NCBI GenBank assembly: GCA_905160935.1
Contig: CAJHZI010000192.1
Coordinates: 1,084,001-1,148,000 of the forward strand
Origin: Enchytraeus crypticus
Lineage: Eukaryota > Annelida > Clitellata > Enchytraeida > Enchytraeidae
Reading direction: 5' to 3'
DNA length: 64,000 nt
Shown: positions 8,323 through 58,345 of the stretch, one piece after another
How the letters are laid out: every line of letters starts with the position of its first letter
Numbering within the stretch: the first letter of the stretch is position 1
Program-made: the position numbers and the translations under genes
The notes under the pieces: model-generated
What the model was told of the DNA's origin: nothing
Seen by the model: only the letters and a program-made list of their open reading frames with translations
The model's database searches: none

Positions 8323-8598
8323 AACATACATTTTTGTTCAGTATTTGATATCCAACTCATTTTTCAAACGTTTCCTAACTCAATCCAGTTGCCGGATATG
8401 ACCCTAAAATTAGTACTGATTAAAAAACTGGATGATTTTAACAGATATGATAACTTTACATTAAATTAGATCAAGACCCGCAAAGCAAACTTAGGCCTAT
8501 AATTTCTTAGAACCACTGTTGTATCAGATTTATTTAATTAGCATATGCCACCACACGACCGGGACACCGAGGTTGTTTTTGGCTGGCAATTAGGGCCG

Positions 8599-8950
8599 TT
8601 CCTGACAGCAGTGGGCGGGGTTAATAAGCTGCTGGGTGAGCACGATGTGATGAGTTTCTGACAGCAGTGGGCGGGGTTAATGAGCTGCTGGGAGAAAAAA
8701 AAGATAAGTTCCTGACAGTAGTGGGCGGGGTTAATGAGCAGGATGTGATGAGTTTCTGACAGCAGTGGGCGGGGGTAATGAGCTGCTGGGAGAAAAAAAA
8801 GATAAGTTCCTGACAGTAGTGGGCGGGGTTAATGAGCAGCTAGGTGAGTATGACGAGTTCCTGACAGCAGTGGGCGGGGTTAATGAGCTGCTGGTAGAGA
8901 ACGATATGATGAGTTCCTGAGAGCAGTGAGCGGAGTTAATGAGCTGCTGG
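8599..8950. repeat. ~54-bp GC-rich minisatellite
   Basis: Seven tandem units, each starting GTTCCTGACAGCAGTGGGCG and followed by GGGTTAATGAGCTGCTGGG. Unit lengths vary from 44 to 56 bp because of a variable linker (GAGCACGATGTGATGA or GAAAAAAAAGATAA). It is markedly more GC-rich than its surroundings. The minus-strand reading frame over it (repeated LTPPTAVRN) is a repeat artefact. Confidence 0.9.
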
Positions 8951-11507
8951 GTGCGCACCCTAGGAGTCCCAGTGCTCCCATTGGTTGCGCTGAAATCTGA
9001 AATGTGCGCCGATGATTTGTTTATTACATTTTATTTTTAGGCGTGGTGACTGCCATTGAGTATTTGATGCCAATAAATCAATGCTGTCAATAATGTTTAA
9101 AAAGATATCTGACATTGATATTATTACACTGATATCCCTAACAGAGCTTAATTCCCAAATAAAGGCTATTAAGAATCATAAAATTGGTAACTTTCATAAT
9201 TTCAGTTTCTATTTCATTATTAAATTGGAAAGATACTCCGACGTAGAGTTATTTTTCCTACTATTGCGGCTTTTGTACTTAACTTATTCTTTATTACGCT
9301 CCAATATTACTTGCAGATTTCCAGACTAAGTATCTAAAATCTCTAGTCATGAAGGAGCATGCACCAGTTGACGGACCTGAGATCTGAGCCTAGGCTACCT
9401 TACAGAGGGGCACTCACTTTCAATTGAACTCCCATGACCAACCAAATAGTAATTTTATTTGAGAAATTTATGTTATATAATATTTTATTTTATAGCATCT
9501 GAACATTCTGAAATACGGCACGATGGCTCATAGAATGTGTAGGGGGTCAGTCCACTCGCCAATATACCAACACAGAGGCGAGCGACAGATAAATTCTACA
9601 CCTCAAACAGCTTGGTGCTAGAATAAAGAGCCTCTCCTTTTTTATATGGGCCGTGTAACCATAACATGGCTCTTTCACTAAGAGCTTCGTCTGAACCTTG
9701 ATATAATATTACGCACGACATACGATATATTAACTAGCACTCTCAAAAGAAACCTATAGAAACATATCAATTAGGCTATTGAAAGTTGCAACACAACTAC
9801 ATTCTGCATCAACACAAAATAGTTATCAAGATAAGCATTACACAAATCGTCCCAAATTAAGCTACAAAACATTGCAATAGGCAAATAGCAGTCCATAATG
9901 CAAATTAGCGCAATATTGTTTATTAGATCGATCAATAACAGTGATAATAAGTTCTATAAAAGTTTTACCTACAGTGCAAAAGTCCAATGCATTTCCCAAC
10001 CAGTTGTCACCATTACATATCTAGACACACGATATTCTGCTTGCACATGCTACATATATATTAACATACAAATACACACCTATAGCAGAGCTGTGCCAAA
10101 TTACGGCTTCAAATCTTGTGAGAAAACACGTGAATACAAATGGCACTTAAAAAGGGCCTACTGTAATATTCAACAAACAATATTTTGTAGAAATTCTAAA
10201 GAGCAATTTTAGTGCATAGCAAGATTACCTTAAGTAACTCCAGCTTATTTCATTACTTTACACTGGCTCAAAAGATATATATAAGGTCTGGCTACTATTC
10301 CGAAAATGACAAAAGCCTGTTCTTGCCACCATTTTAATCTGAAGGGGATATTATGCACACCACCAATCTAAAGCAAACTGATGTTAGTAGGCATATGCAA
10401 AAACACATCTACAGCCCATATGCATATTTTCATATACAATACAAACGTGTACAGTGTAAATAAGCATGCAGCAACAGAAATTTATCATACACAAAACACA
10501 CTAACTTAACATTTGTTAATAGCTATAGGCTACCAAGACACATAGTCAATATACATATGCTCTGACACTTTACTATTCTTCAAACAATTTACAGAAGTAA
10601 TTCAGAAATCTCATACGATATCATATTCTAGGCCCTTCTACAATCTAATTAGGCATGAACCCTAATCAAAAAGAGTATTTTTCATGCAATTCCAGTTTTA
10701 ATTTCAGTTTCATGCAATTCCAGTTTTAAATCTCAGGGATCTCAGGGATCACCAGTTGATGCTATCTACTCATTTTTAACATTTCAACAAATCATTACAA
10801 TCTCGATCAATTTGGTATTAATAAATGGAAATTTTTTTTGTAGATTGGTGAAATTGAGGAGAAGCATTTATTTATTCATGCTGATATTTATCATATCATT
10901 GAATTTAATCATTCACCCGGTGTAAACAGGAATGAAAAAATCTGAAAATATTTTTCATCTATGCCATCAATCGAATTACAGGCTATTTCTTGTTCTTGAG
11001 AATCATGTGACTTCAATCAATAAATGACATGCATAGAAACGTGATTAAATAATTCAATGCATTGCATCCTAGCACATGTAAAAATAAATCTTACGTCAGA
11101 CTCTATCCATTTATACAGTACAAAGCATGCCTATATCAGACTATCCATTTATCCATGTTTTGTACTAACAAAACATGCCTATCTCAGTCTACTCATAGCG
11201 ACTGTTCAATTAGCGCACATCAGTATCAGTCTATGATTCATATTCATTCGTATATAAAAATCGCAACACAAGTTACATCAGCTTAGATCAGAGGTGACCG
11301 AGAGCAGACAGGTCAGCACCAGACATTTCTTATGCTACCAAGCCACAGATATTTCATAAGTTCGACAGCTACAGGGTGCAATAAAAAAGTAGGCAAACAC
11401 ATGACGTATATTCTACACTCTGTTTAAGAGTCAGAAAAATGTATACACTTATTCCCCTGCTACTTTCTTTTACAATAGTTGCACAATTAGCCTTCAATTA
11501 CTTTAAA
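8951..11507. other. intergenic DNA downstream of AMMECR1
   Basis: No repeat family or coding exon seen. Some of this may be long AMMECR1 3' UTR if the poly(A) signal at 11508 is skipped. Short open frames here lack splice support. Confidence 0.45.
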
Positions 11508-18113: not shown

Positions 18114-18585
18114 AATCTTAATCTGAATCGTAAGAAGATTCAAAATTAAAAACCAATCATCTAATGTGTGCTATTTTATTATTTGTAATTATAATTATAA
18201 CCTTAGAATAATATTTTAATTTTATACCGAAATAGTTAAGAATACGCGTCTTGTTAGATTATAATCAAATTTAAGGCGTAGAGCGTACAGACCTTTATTG
18301 TCACCTTCGCCGTTAATTTCAATGCTATAGTTTGGGGCGGGTACAGACCGTACTGTTCGATTTGCTCTCATATGTTCTATAGTTTAAGATATCTAGTTTT
18401 TGCAAACTGATACTCAGAAGCCCCATCATTGAATTAGCCATAATTCTTTTATGAGACCTAAAGAGCTAGCCGTAGTTATTGCTTTAAAATAAACCTCTTA
18501 GCGTGACTCTTTTTGCCTTCTTCATCGGGTTTTTTCTTTTCTTTCTGCATCTAGCGTATGCACATGCGTCTGGTCTATTTTCAAA

Positions 18586-18630
18586 TTATTATTATTAATA
18601 TTATTGTTGTTATTATTATTATTATTATTT
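18586..18630. repeat. ATT microsatellite
   Basis: TTATTATT with GTT interruptions. It may be the tail of an unrecognised LINE end. Confidence 0.8.
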
Positions 18631-19170
18631 AACCCCCTAAAAAGGAGACTTTTTACACAAATCTTGCTCTTTACTCCGAAATGCCGTATCACCAAACGCA
18701 CCACTAAAACAAACTGCATTGTATCGCTGCAGAGCCATTGACAAACGTTGCCATAGGAAAGTTTTCTCACGTAGATTTACAGTAACAGGAGTAGTCCTCT
18801 TACCTATCACATCAATGAAATATGTGCCTGCAGAATTTATGGGTCCCAGGGTCTCAAAGACTAAGGGTGCAAATATGTATTTAGAAGATAATTCGATGTA
18901 TTTAACGTTTGTATTTGTTATTATTACTATTATTAATTTATTATTATTATAATTTTTAACTAAGGTTATTTTAAAATATTTGAGAAATCTTCTAAAGGAT
19001 ACGAGAGTGATAAATACAAGTAAATACTGAAGGGACCATTGTCAGAAGAGCTGAGCAAACACTCCACTCATCAGGTCATATAATGCAGGTTGCCCTTATC
19101 AGGAGCTTGGGCTCCGGAGCTGATTGAAGTTTCTCCAGCTCTCAGCTAGCCTGCCACGTACCTGCCTATT

Positions 19171-19954: not shown

Positions 19955-20057
19955 TATCGATGTTGTCATTGATGACTGTAGCACTCTAGTTGTTGTTGTT
20001 ATTATTATTATTATTATACTTATTTATTTTTATTTTTTATTTTATTATATTATTATT
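19955..20057 (+). mobile_element. LINE-A 3' terminus with ATT tail
   Basis: GATGTTGTCATTGATGACTG then TAGCACTCTAGTTGTTG and an ATT-rich tail. GTCATTGATGAC is self-complementary. The tail is the microsatellite into which the next element inserted. Confidence 0.75.
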
Positions 20058-20072
20058 GTTATTACTATTATT
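20058..20072. repeat. target-site duplication, left copy
   Basis: GTTATTACTATTATT, identical to 22408-22422 on the far side of the retrotransposon. The internal C makes the match more informative than plain ATT repeats. Confidence 0.65.
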
Positions 20073-22407
20073 TTTTACCCCGGTGTAAAGAACCTGGGGT
20101 TTGATAAAAACGATTCGAGCAATACGTGCTGAATCGCCGCCCGGCTACTCGAGGTCATCAATCGGCTTAAAAGAATTGTTGAAGCAGACTGCATTAAATC
20201 TTTGCAAAGTCATGGAAAGCCTTTGCCAAAGAAAAGATGTCTCTCGCTTATCGCCGGTTTGCTCTGCAATAAGTCTGCCTATGCCATTAATAAAGTCAAC
20301 TCCTTCGGGATTCATCGGGCCCATGGTTTCAATAGCCACCGGAACAACTTCATATCCTAAGGACAGATCACGGTATTTATCCAACTTCCTAGAGGCGGCA
20401 TGAACAGCAGCACCACCGGCTGTGACTGAAGTCGTATTCAGGTAGGAGTTTGCCATAGTGTCAATGACCGTGACGTCCCAAACGGCACATTTACCGTTGC
20501 ACCAGGGCACTAAAGTCATGCCGTCCGGACGCTTGCCGTCTGATCTGGACAACCCACTTGGTTCCTTATAGGAAGGGATGCCTGCTCTCGAAAGTGCTCG
20601 CCATATTATGTCATTTAAATTGTGATGGCGAGACATTCTACCTGAGCTTCGTTTGCAGGAGAGACCGTGGAGACCTAAAGCGTCGACTTCAAGACCGCAG
20701 GGGCACATGTGAGGCTCGCAAGTTTTCGCCCCTAAACGGAAACTAACAGCTACTCGAATCGCCTCATTGTCTAAAAATAGCCCACAAGAAGCAACAGGGA
20801 GAGCGTGAAGCCAGTCGCTGCTTCTTTTAGTTGATACAGCTAGGAGTCGTGCTCTGTCTACTGCATTGGACTGGGATTCTAACAGACTGTTATAAATCCG
20901 ATCCACTATAGGACGGTCCCATGATTTCTGGCTACTGACTGAGGTAGAAGGTGGAGCACTGGAGGTGAGGCTTTTGGACCAAACTGACAACGCAACGTCA
21001 ATGGAACTATCGGCAGAAAGGGAGCACTTATGAAGGATGGCGTCTTGCAACTGCCTCGTTCCCATCGCTGATGCCAAGAAGGCTGAAGGCGCGATATGGG
21101 AAACAAGACGAATTCCAAGACCACCCATGCTCACCGGTAGACTGGCTTGCTGCCACTGCAAATCAGACAAATCTGCGTTGATAACGGCGCACAAGCATTG
21201 CCTAAGAGCCTCGTCGTAGTCTAAAAGCCGCGGATTAGAGAAGCTCGGACTAGAGCGCAGAACGTGCATAAGTTTAGGTGCACTTAAAGAAAAGCGAAGG
21301 ATTGTTAAAGCATCATGAGCGGCTAGCGACTTCAAGCGCGATGCTGTACGTTTGAGGTCTTCAAGGCGACTGGATAAAGCGGTGGTAGTAGCTTCTTCTC
21401 CAGAGAGTGGCGCGCCGAGTAGAGAACTATGGGATAGGCACATTGGCACAAATGATGACAAAACTGAGTTGCCCGGAGATTTGCAAACTGATGATATGAC
21501 TTCGCACTTGGTACGATTCAACTGAAGCCCAAATTCTTGGCCTCTGTCGATGATAGTCCGTACATCATTTGCAATCGACGACTCGCAACCACCTAGAGTA
21601 ATGTCATCTAGGTATCCCACCGTGAGATCGCTAGAGAGAGAAGTAAGGAGAGGGTGAATGGTCAAGCAAAACAGCATGGGCCCTAAGGGATCCCCTTGTT
21701 GGACTCCTTCCTGTGACTCAATGCACCAGTCTCCGAACTTCAACCACGAAGGGCTTGAGTAAGCTAGATGGCAGAAACTATACAGCTCTGGTATCCTGTG
21801 ATGTATTTCGCTGAGCATTCGTGATCTACTCAAGCAATTAAAAGCATTACAGAAGTCTAGCTTTACCACGAAGTGATCAGCTGGCATTGACTCAGCGAAA
21901 CGGCGAGTAGCGTGAACAGCTGCCTCACAGCCACCTGGAATACCAGCTCCAAGTTGAATTGGGCTCAAGTATTCGCTGAGAGCAGACACTGCATAGCGAT
22001 TTGCGCATTTAGCGGCTAAACGACGCCAAGTGTAACCCACTGCAATGGGGCGAATGCCGCCAGATTTCTTATTGAGTGCGAAGAGTTTACCACCAAACAG
22101 CACCGGTTGGACCTCAGGGGGGCAAACACCTCTAAGAAGGAGATTCACGAAAGAAGTCAAAGCGGTCAAAAATGTCCCAGCCGACTCTCTACAAGTCACA
22201 AGCTCCAGAAGATGCTGAGGGCGAAGGCCATCAGGACCACCTGCTGAGCCTGCTGGAAAGCTACGTACAGCTTTGACAACATCCTGCTCTGAGACTTGAA
22301 TGGGCGGAGTCTCCATTGAGTCCGGAAGGGGTGCCATTATACTGCTACTAGCTGCGGGTGGGTGCTTGGCCTTCAGGATATTGAAAGTGTTTAATTTAGT
22401 TTAAAGT
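20073..22407 (-). mobile_element. non-LTR retrotransposon copy with intact reading frame
   Basis: A 2335-bp element between identical 15-bp direct repeats in an ATT-rich tract. In the minus orientation it has about 70 bp before the ATG (the frame opens after a TAA with NTFNILKAKHPPAASS), the 730-codon frame, and a ~70-nt 3' UTR. The UTR ends in a GC hairpin (CCCCAGGTTCTTTACACC then GGGG). No A-tail is seen. Full-length relatives probably have more N-terminal sequence, so this copy may be 5'-truncated. Confidence 0.8.
20145..22337 (-). CDS. retrotransposon reverse transcriptase / restriction-like endonuclease, intact
   Basis: 730 residues with no stop or frameshift. Reverse transcriptase motifs: AGSAGGPDGLRPQHL (residues 30-44), KLDFCNAFN (catalytic D161), EGVQQGDPLGPMLF (210-223) and YLDD (242-245, D244/D245). 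The C-terminal half has a Cys/His cluster, CEPHMCPCGLEVDALGLHGL through C561 (C540, C545, C547, H558, C561). A PD-(D/E)XK-like core follows: E592 in KEPSG, RPD at 603-605 and WDVT at 620-623. This order (RT, zinc knuckle, nuclease) is that of non-LTR elements with a restriction-like endonuclease such as R2 and relatives; the exact clade is not assigned. Base composition is richer in GC than the flanks. Possible alternatives are a live element or a domesticated copy. The upstream in-frame codons (ASSSI) before ATG suggest the annotated start is internal to the family protein. Confidence 0.85.
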   Translation of the reverse strand: MAPLPDSMETPPIQVSEQDVVKAVRSFPAGSAGGPDGLRPQHLLELVTCRESAGTFLTALTSFVNLLLRGVCPPEVQPVLFGGKLFALNKKSGGIRPIAVGYTWRRLAAKCANRYAVSALSEYLSPIQLGAGIPGGCEAAVHATRRFAESMPADHFVVKLDFCNAFNCLSRSRMLSEIHHRIPELYSFCHLAYSSPSWLKFGDWCIESQEGVQQGDPLGPMLFCLTIHPLLTSLSSDLTVGYLDDITLGGCESSIANDVRTIIDRGQEFGLQLNRTKCEVISSVCKSPGNSVLSSFVPMCLSHSSLLGAPLSGEEATTTALSSRLEDLKRTASRLKSLAAHDALTILRFSLSAPKLMHVLRSSPSFSNPRLLDYDEALRQCLCAVINADLSDLQWQQASLPVSMGGLGIRLVSHIAPSAFLASAMGTRQLQDAILHKCSLSADSSIDVALSVWSKSLTSSAPPSTSVSSQKSWDRPIVDRIYNSLLESQSNAVDRARLLAVSTKRSSDWLHALPVASCGLFLDNEAIRVAVSFRLGAKTCEPHMCPCGLEVDALGLHGLSCKRSSGRMSRHHNLNDIIWRALSRAGIPSYKEPSGLSRSDGKRPDGMTLVPWCNGKCAVWDVTVIDTMANSYLNTTSVTAGGAAVHAASRKLDKYRDLSLGYEVVPVAIETMGPMNPEGVDFINGIGRLIAEQTGDKRETSFLWQRLSMTLQRFNAVCFNNSFKPIDDLE

Positions 22408-22422
22408 GTTATTACTATTATT
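22408..22422. repeat. target-site duplication, right copy
   Basis: GTTATTACTATTATT, followed by more ATT microsatellite to about 22465. Confidence 0.65.
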
Positions 22423-23139
22423 ATTGTTATTATTATTATTATTATTAATATTATTATTATAAAAGCGGCAAGTAACTATGTCATATAGCTAGACTACAAA
22501 AGACGAAATGTAAGGTTTAATTTGATCTAATAGGGTTTAATATTTATAAATGCAGGAATATGCAAAATAAACGGTTCTAAATTAGTCTATGAGAATTTTA
22601 TTATTGTTCTTTATTTAAAATTTATTTATTTATTATTTATAAAATTGCATGTATTTACTTACTGTTCAGAAATCTGAACAGCAGACTAGTTCAGCTAGCA
22701 CTTAATTAATGATAATATTAAAAATTTCAACTTAATTCAAAAATACTTTAAAATTGACTAATTTAGAAGTGAAAATTGATTTCATTTTCACAAATTACAG
22801 TACTGACTAGTGTTTTGCTTTTGCTTTCTGTAAAATCAGAATGCAGTCCATAGCTAAGCTAAATGAATAAAAAATATTATTAAGATTAATTATTTTTAAA
22901 AGTTAATTAAATATTATTATTAGGTCAAAAATCAGATTGCGATCTAGAGCAGAGCTAGATTAGTAGTAAAACTTGGTAAACTAATTTTCTCATTTGGTTT
23001 CAAAGTAGCTGCTAAATGTAAAGAATCAATAGCAACTATTTCTAATACCAAATGAGGTCTCATATTAATTTGCTCTTTAGATTCATTTATTATACTAATC
23101 ACACAATCATCTCTATCAATAATTTAAGCTTTCATACAC
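22423..23139. other. ATT microsatellite then AT-rich unique DNA
   Basis: Bases 22423-22465 are the rest of the ATT tract. Beyond it I see no gene or known repeat. Confidence 0.5.
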
Positions 23140-23998: not shown

Positions 23999-48924
<24,926 letters not shown>

Positions 48925-53741: not shown

Positions 53742-53835
53742 CAGGTAATAATAACAACAATTAGAGTGCTATAGTCATCAATGACAACATCGAGCACTAT
53801 TGAGACAGAATCAATCCGGCGAGCAAAAACGAATA
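53742..53835 (-). mobile_element. LINE-A 3' end
   Basis: AACAACAATTAGAGTGCTAT, AGTCATCAATGACAACATCG, AGCACTATTGAGACAGAATC. A scrap of LINE-B end (ATCATGGACCTGCCATGAAA) follows. Confidence 0.85.
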
Positions 53836-55974: not shown

Positions 55975-57130
55975 CAAATATAACAACAATAACAACAATT
56001 AGAGTGCTACAGTCATCAATGACAACATCGAGCACTATTGAGACAAAATCAAGCCTGTGAGCAAAATGAAGGTCCAAAAATGGTGCAAATTCCAAAATCC
56101 AGATAATCAGTCCAAAGTAAAGGGAATTAAAGAAAAGGAAGTTTAGGCGCAGGTCGCTGCTCATGGACACTGGATGGAAACGAGAGTTGGAAAAGATAGG
56201 TCTTCAACTGCCTATGGAACTACTCATAGGAAAGCAAGGCCGATGTTTGAAATCTTCAAATGAAGATTTCCGAAGATTGGATAGAAGAGAATTCCAGATC
56301 TGCGGTGCAGCATGCAGGAAAGAACGATTAGATAGCTTAGAGCGCGAAGTTAAGCTAGATCTCACAAGAGTAATTAATTTAGAAGACCGAGTAACAGCAG
56401 GCTGCATCACTTTAATCAAGTGAGACATACAAGTTTGTCCAGGGATGGTGATGGACTTATAGGTTAACGACGCTGTTTTGTAAATGATACGCTCTTTAAT
56501 CATTAGCCAGTGCAAAGACTTTAAAATAGGCATAACATGTTAGTACTTGGAACTACAAAAAATTGCTCGCGCAAGAGAATTCTGAACAAACTGCAATCGA
56601 TTTATCTCACAGCCAGGGAGATTTAAAAACAGGGAATTGCAGTAGTCCAATTTCGATTGCACATGAGTAGCACCAATTGTAGCAACTGTTTCACATGACA
56701 AATATGGACGTATTCGACGAAGATCTCGGATATGAAAGAAACATGCTTGTGAAGTTTTAGCTATGTGTTCATAGAAGGTTAGGTGTTTATCAAGGATAAC
56801 ACCGAGATTTCTCACAGAAGAAACAGGTGATATTGTAATACCCGAAGATAATGAAAGAGTTTTCCCATTCAGCTTCAAAAGCTGTTGAGGTGTCCCAACC
56901 AATAAGAATTCAGTCTGATGGATTAAGTGCCAAAAAATTAGCAGACATCCACGAGGATATAGACTGAAAACTTTGTTGCAGGAGGGTTTCAGCATCAGAG
57001 TAGGAGTTAGGGGTGAAACAAGTGTACATTTGAGTGTCATCAGCATATAGTTCACGATCAATAGAATGAGAAGAGATCAGTGAGCTTAAGGGTGTTGTAT
57101 AGAGGTTGAAAAGGATAGGACCAAAGCATC
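55975..57130 (-). pseudogene. LINE-A (L2/CR1-like) reverse transcriptase fragment
   Basis: Minus strand, with frameshifts: FGPILFNLYTTPLSSLISSH, then RELYADDTQMYTCFTP (catalytic YADD), SISSWMSANFLALNPS, VSSVRNLGVILDKHLTFYEH, HIRDLRRIRPYLSCETVATI, LDYCNSLFLNLPGCEINRLQ and LHAAPQIWNSLL. The 3' end is the family hairpin and TTG tail at ~55980. It is 5'-truncated just before the GP..FNLY motif and broken by stops. Confidence 0.93.
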
Positions 57131-57249: not shown

Positions 57250-58345
57250 CTTCTTAGTGCACTGCCTACTGGCAGGTCCATGGTACATAACACCTCCACT
57301 CTTCTCTGTCTTCCGCCTTCCTCTTCATTTCCACATATGAGTGGGTCTTTAAATCATCTAACATACCTAATCTCGGCCTGCCCCTGCCTCTTTTTCCTTC
57401 CATTCTAACTTCTATGACCTCTTTTAATAGACCTTCCCCCCTTAGAATGTGTCCTATCCATCTCTTCTTCCTATTTCTTAATACATTTATCAACTGTCTA
57501 TCTGTGCCAACTCTCTCCAGGACTTCCTCATTTGTAACCTTTTGAGTCCAGCTATTCCTCTCCATTCTTCTGCAAATCCACATTTCCAATGCCTCCAGTT
57601 TCCTAATATCTTCCTTCCTTAAGGTCCATGTTTCACATCCATACAATAGCGTGGTCCAAATCAAAGTTTTCACTATCTTTATCTTTGTGTCTTTCTTTAG
57701 ACGTTTTGTTAATAGTTCTTTTCTACTACCAAAGGCCGCTTTTGCTTGTGCAATCCTACTGCATATTTCCGTCTCACATTTCCCATCATCGGTTATAGTA
57801 TGACCCAAATATTTGAAACTCCTTACCTGTTCCAATTTCGTACCATTTGTTGTGATATTAACTTCACCTTTATTATTGGACACTCTCATAACCCTGGTCT
57901 TTTTATATTAATCTTCATGCCATATCTTAAGGCCTTTTCTTTCAGCCTATCCATTATCTTCTGCAATCCAATCTCGCTGCCCGCTACCATTCCTTGGTCA
58001 TCTGCAAATCGTAAATCTTGTAACAAATTCCCTCCTACTTTTATTCTTTCTTCCATGTCTTCCATGGCTTCCTCCATCATTGCCTCAGCCTAAATGTTAA
58101 ACAGGAGCGGTGAAATGCTACAACCTTGTCTTACTCCACGTCCTATTTCACCTTCTTCTGAGTATTCGTGTTGGATTTTGATTACTGCTCTTTGATTCAT
58201 GTACAAGTTCAAAATTAGTCTTCTATCTCTCCAGTCAATTCCTATTCTTTTTAAGATATTTATCATCGCTATCCAATCAATCCTGTCAAAGGCCTTCTTG
58301 AAGTCTACAAAGCATACAAAACGTCATTTTCATATTTATTATTTA
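57250..58345 (-). pseudogene. LINE-B (RTE-like) reverse transcriptase fragment
   Basis: Minus strand: FVDFKKAFDRIDWIAMINIL, GRGVRQGCSISPLLFNI, stop, then DLRFADDQGMVAG (catalytic FADD), frameshift near 57890, SFKYLGHTITDDGKCETEI, LLYGCETWTLRKED, KRWIGHILRGEGLLKEV, RGRPRLGMLDDLKTH and EMKRKAEDREEWRCYVPWTC plus Q and stop. The stop codon lies inside the 3' hairpin CTGCCAGTAGGCAG. One stop and one frameshift make it dead, but it is the best LINE-B copy here. The 5' end and the N-terminal endonuclease are missing. Confidence 0.93.

Follow-up and report, generated by a model that had tools for sequence, protein, structure and literature searches.

The 64,000-nucleotide stretch of the Enchytraeus crypticus genome analyzed here (the window) very probably carries a recent 5′-truncated copy of a non-LTR retrotransposon that belongs to the restriction-like-endonuclease (RLE) type and is specific for (TAA)n. 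The body of the element, assigned to family A, lies on the minus strand at 20078..22393; its limits were drawn from similarity to other copies, with the final bases placed by eye, and from the position of the 3′ hairpin, and the 5′ limit is approximate (∼22393; BLAST puts it at 22397). The 3′-terminal hairpin CCCCAGGTTCTTTACACCGGGG (20078..20099) stands directly ahead of an A-rich tail that grades into (TAA)n (19999..20077), and the other half of the target is a (TAA)n tract flanking the 5′ end (22409..22460), all in the minus-strand sense. Viewed on the plus strand, the copy is flanked by (TTA)n tracts at 19999-20072 and 22409-22460, which read as (TAA)n in the direction of the element. An earlier sequence-only reading of the window had placed the frame inside an ATT microsatellite, as found here on both sides; that the microsatellite is the integration target is a reading absent from that account.

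The open frame of this copy (minus strand, 22337..20145) runs for 730 codons plus a stop from ATG to stop, as previously reported, and for 751 codons from stop to stop. It had also been described as intact, a description that has to be withdrawn: the ATG at 22337 corresponds to an internal Met, and ∼261 N-terminal residues present in the 991-aa full-length copies are missing, so that the frame is incomplete as a gene and corresponds to the C-terminal part of the 991-aa protein (RT, linker, Cys/His knuckle, and RLE-like C-terminus). The motifs listed in the sequence-only reading could all be located. The RT core (RVT_1, residues 89-282 of the 730-aa frame; 21492..22073) was delimited by Pfam and sequence and includes K159-L-D161 and YLDD at 242-245, while the Cys/His cluster at 540-561 forms the knuckle C540..C545-x-C547-x9-H557-x3-C561 (20655..20720). 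The RLE-like core (20385..20531) contains RPD at 603-605 (within KRPDG, which starts at 602), WDVT at 620-623, and K651, and was defined by sequence and by a weak collinear alignment to R2.

One other related piece was found in the window at an E value of <0.001 (tblastn). It is a fragment from the 3′ part of an older related family, family B (18640..18912), in the same minus-strand orientation as the family A copy and 51% identical to it over 70 aa, and it also sits between (TTA)n-rich tracts (18585-18629 and 18913-18959). The earlier statement that every other LINE copy in the window is broken could be checked in part, for this fragment; two frames that look LINE-like (56543-57076 and 57269-57907) had no Pfam match. 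The window copy's TAA tract is bordered by a short repeat, AACAACAAYTAGAGTGCTACAGTCATCAATGACAACATCGA (19957-20033), of which three further copies are present in the window (47538-47616, 53746-53793, and 55980-56031). The window also holds a 616-bp (AG)n array (27669-28284) that gives rise to long spurious minus-strand open frames, and a tandem array of ∼350 bp composed of 54/98-bp units (8598-8951).

A search of the genome (524 Mb in 802 contigs) with the window protein gave 61 scored matches among 9,622 candidates, 50 of which had a protein identity of at least 98%; by this count, the window frame is not unusual in the genome. Chance opening of the frame was rejected because dozens of copies keep it. 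Full-length family A elements are 3.36 kb long and carry a 991-aa frame, with a 1,008-codon open frame in many copies. Two copies (L036 and L038) carry a frame-changing base upstream of the first Met, unlike other copies, and the family C frame (see below) opens at a Met matching this first Met of family A; the family A protein is therefore most likely 991 aa in length. Of 20 family A copies taken with flanks for comparison, 14 had a full 5′ end, and the distance from the 5′ end to just past the hairpin was 3,355 to 3,357 bp in 13 of these and 2,958 bp in one. Divergence among the 14 was 0.06 to 1.16%, with a mean of 0.59% (91 pairs, gapped), and the window copy is identical to copy L024 over all 2,190 coding bases. 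These values bear out the earlier suggestion of a young, possibly active insertion; the window copy belongs, as a very recent member, to an expansion of several non-LTR retrotransposon families.

At the 3′ end of family A, the hairpin is followed by an A-rich run and then by (TAA)n. The linker between hairpin and TAA has a median length of 35 nt and is composed largely of A (1,579 of 1,882 bases in 56 copies). The sequence TAATAATAA was found within 110 bp after 56 of the 61 copies, compared with a background of 1.2 to 3.3%; four of the five that failed this strict test (L055, L060, L064, and L080) have interrupted TAA runs, and the fifth (L059) has (TTA)n. All 20 copies fetched first had (TAA)3+ within 120 bp of the hairpin. 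An earlier scan gave 32 of 41, and for four of its nine misses (L042, L062, L063, and L072) an altered hairpin was the sole reason. Pattern searches across the genome, which are independent of the choice of copies and count exact 19-base ends only, identified TAATAATAA within 30 nt downstream of 731 of 1,161 plus-strand 3′ ends. For the remaining 430, longer tails, decay, or other sites are possible; TTATTATTA was found at 34 of the 1,161 ends, often after a TAA run. Counts were taken from one strand, with one entry per site among the matches listed, and totals with several ends per site were left out (2,142 for the 3′ end, 88 for TTATTATTA, and 156 for family C, all reverse, and 260 for the 5′ end, forward). 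Control searches with the pattern reversed gave zero matches in all seven cases.

The 5′ side of the insertions showed the same association. From 39 5′ stretches taken, one without a joint (L099) was dropped, and a scripted test identified a tract within 60 bp of the junction in 36 of the remaining 38 (background, 0.8 to 2.8%), although in L097 the matching tract is not adjacent to the joint. The two copies that missed the test also have TAA tracts, farther upstream in L036 and upstream of an inverted stretch of element sequence in L084. By eye, this stretch in L084 derives from the element's own coding part; it separates the TAA tract from the 5′ end, is oppositely oriented, and resembles a 5′ inversion. 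Genome-wide, 43 of 47 exact minus-strand 5′ ends had TAATAATAA within 30 nt upstream. The ATT microsatellite is thus the integration target. Short extra bases and partial 5′ repeats were present at the 5′ joints, and at the joints of L095 and of G000:C209:252135-252189 the first bases of the element, TTCGCTAT..TTCGCTAGAGG, had been partly copied again.

A-rich LINE tails can seed microsatellites, and it could be argued that family A inserts without preference and that the TAA grows afterwards from its poly(A) tail. The A-rich linker between hairpin and TAA, which at times grades from A-runs into TAA, speaks for such growth, but the 5′ ends have no tail and are also preceded by TAA (43/47 and 36/38), oriented as it is at the 3′ ends, making this account of the insertions highly improbable. 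Some of the 3′ TAA could nevertheless have grown from poly(A) tails, an origin that only the 5′ side excludes. Still less credence can be given to retention of the frame as a domesticated host gene, which the sequence-only reading had allowed for as a frame under selection. The frame is long and open, and the pooled pN/pS among 19 family A copies was 0.22 (171 pairs; L033 was omitted for a 3-base insertion), but there are many near-identical copies, among which similarity stops at the ends of the element in 20, and the element is 5′ truncated into a microsatellite and has transposon-like ends. The pN/pS value is itself only indicative, since copies were chosen by protein score, which lowers pN, and it is compatible with selection on source copies before insertion.

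RVT_1 was identified in the window frame with an E value of 1.9e−15, and it was the only Pfam match to the full-length frame at E values up to 10. A profile built from three families of this genome matched five R2-type sequences in the PDB (8.1e−10 to 6.1e−8), followed by other RTs at 0.36 and 1.3. Three of the five are named R2 retrotransposon, and two (8gh6 and 8ibw), presumably R2Bm, are named "reverse transcriptase-like protein." Second alignment stretches, weak and individually nonsignificant, run in the order knuckle, GR..RH, and PD...DVTV, and within them the family A knuckle (Cx1Cx9Hx3C) pairs with that of 8gh6. The C-terminus bears a PD-x15-D motif, and the order of RT, Cys/His knuckle, GR..RH, and PD-x15-D is that of RLE LINEs. 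Together, the R2-type PDB matches and the collinear weak stretches support the RLE layout proposed in the sequence-only reading, at the level of sequence. No nuclease in the PDB was matched by a profile restricted to the RLE region, and AlphaFold2 models of window sequences, run without a usable alignment, had pLDDT values of 36.7 and 34.5. Assignment to the RLE-type non-LTR group draws on the R2-type RT and on the 5′ truncation and target specificity observed here. Near the N-terminus, a Cys/His motif (C20-x2-C23-x6-H30-x6-H37-x-H39-x6-C46) is kept in families A and C; it had no library match and is a putative DNA-binding motif of the single 991-aa frame.

A search with the family B fragment of the window scored 150 of 6,689 candidates. 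Among these, family C was recognized as ∼100 matches of nearly equal score, with ∼60% identity to the family B query and frames of up to 982 codons; families A and C are 51 to 52% identical. The layout is shared by a broken copy of family B (L102), and at their 3′ ends families B and C likewise fold into hairpins (z-scores modest, −1.2 to −1.8). The sole family C copy read (L101) is flanked only by broken TAA-like runs, and the genome pattern search identified a TAA repeat at 48 of 82 exact family C 3′ ends. Another A, B, or C element was present in 12 of 61 family A 3′ flanks (200 bp), compared with 2 of 200 tiles drawn from 5′ flanks as a control, indicating that insertions stack; 14 of 320 window tiles contained such an element, the window copy itself included. 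In 11 of the 12 cases the neighbor had the same orientation and in L052 the opposite one, as read from the best matches, since tblastx matches occurred in both senses and made a scripted count unreliable. Families A, B, and C therefore stack within the same (TAA)n tracts. A different dispersed repeat, (A)AGGTTTAACGTCCGTTTCCTCAT, was found after the TAA tract in 13 of 61 3′ flanks (L022, L035, L042, and ten more) and in 2 of 200 control tiles, and also occurs in the window (∼39978, minus strand); it may be another element linked to TAA, or TAA tracts may arise from it.

Insertion of family A can be pictured as target-primed reverse transcription. The single protein would bind its own RNA through the 3′ hairpin, and its C-terminal nuclease would nick the (TTA)n strand of the microsatellite, as suggested by the motif order and by R2 as described in parts of PMC10499050. 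The freed TTATTA-3′ end could then prime on the A-rich/UAA tail of the RNA, from which the RT would copy toward the 5′ end, frequently halting early, and joining of the upper end would add a few bases. In the genome, 2,303 exact 3′ ends stand against 104 exact 5′ ends (22 to 1), an excess predicted by target-primed reverse transcription with its 3′ start and frequent premature stops, although unequal decay of the two 19-base words could add to the ratio. The extra bases and partial 5′ repeats at the joints fit template jumping at the upper side. Since insertions have (TAA)n on both sides, a tract that has received one copy can accept others.

Proteins of this sort frequently appear in invertebrate annotations as unnamed entries. 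No relatives were found in IMG/VR, GTDB genome contigs, or plasmids. Families A, B, and C are not described in the portions available of PMC3774820, PMC3636483, PMC4640811, PMC5035012, PMC7650587, PMC3849965, PMC11203168, PMC3124438, PMC5678591, PMC7998251, or PMC10499050. Insertion into (TAA)n by an RLE LINE is nevertheless clearly a known strategy and not a new kind of system, since Dong, of the R4 clade, already uses (TAA)n (sections of PMC3774820 and PMC7998251); in part of the latter, this target is given for an ostracod and for most insects, molluscs, and cnidarians. The earlier view that the frame is unlike R2 or L1 thus stands for YLDD and for the knuckle spacing but loses weight with (TAA)n-specific RLE LINEs already in print. 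R2 supplies the closest solved RTs and has the same order of RT, linker, knuckle, and RLE-like C-terminus; it differs in its target, which is 28S rDNA rather than (TAA)n, in chain length (1,114 to 1,390 aa for the matched PDB chains versus 991 aa), and in the spacing of the knuckle. In RLE elements, the CCHC knuckle before the nuclease is given as Cx2-3Cx7-8Hx4C in the section available of PMC5678591. The HERO clade includes families with microsatellite targets, and Togen, of the NeSL clade, targets (TG)n (part of PMC4640811); both are RLE elements resembling family A by description only, and the Togen repeat differs.

That the three families are true members of the R4/Dong clade is a serious possibility, if one held at somewhat less than even confidence, and it competes with a separate clade, not with the insertion mechanism. 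The shared (TAA)n target, the RT with a putative C-terminal RLE layout, and the R2-type RT speak for membership. Against it, Dong and R4 have an HDV-like ribozyme (PMC3774820, in part), whereas an Rfam search around the L022 5′ end (L022:2300-6000) identified none among six chance-level matches at E values up to 10, though a diverged ribozyme could escape; the window itself had no Rfam match at gathering thresholds. Dong is further described, in part of PMC7998251, as having a SANT/Myb-like domain and no N-terminal Zn fingers, while families A and C have the N-terminal Cys/His motif, and the full-length family A frame gave no Pfam match to SANT/Myb. Family A also has YLDD where the AF/YADD active-site motif is reported for non-LTR elements (section of PMC3774820), and its knuckle spacing, too, speaks against a simple placement with Dong. 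None of these differences is decisive. More doubtful is the proposal of a separate RLE-LINE clade, characterized by YLDD, a tight knuckle, the N-terminal Cys/His motif, a short 3′ hairpin, and no ribozyme, which would have reached (TAA)n independently, keep its landing sites open, and build one-way multi-family stacks.

In this genome, many insertions of several families lie in one simple repeat and can be read at both ends, so that target choice, priming, and 5′ joining are measurable statistically. An enzyme that reads (TAA)n would also lend itself to comparison with R2 in site-directed insertion. Should the clade prove separate from Dong, microsatellite targeting would have arisen more than once among RLE elements.
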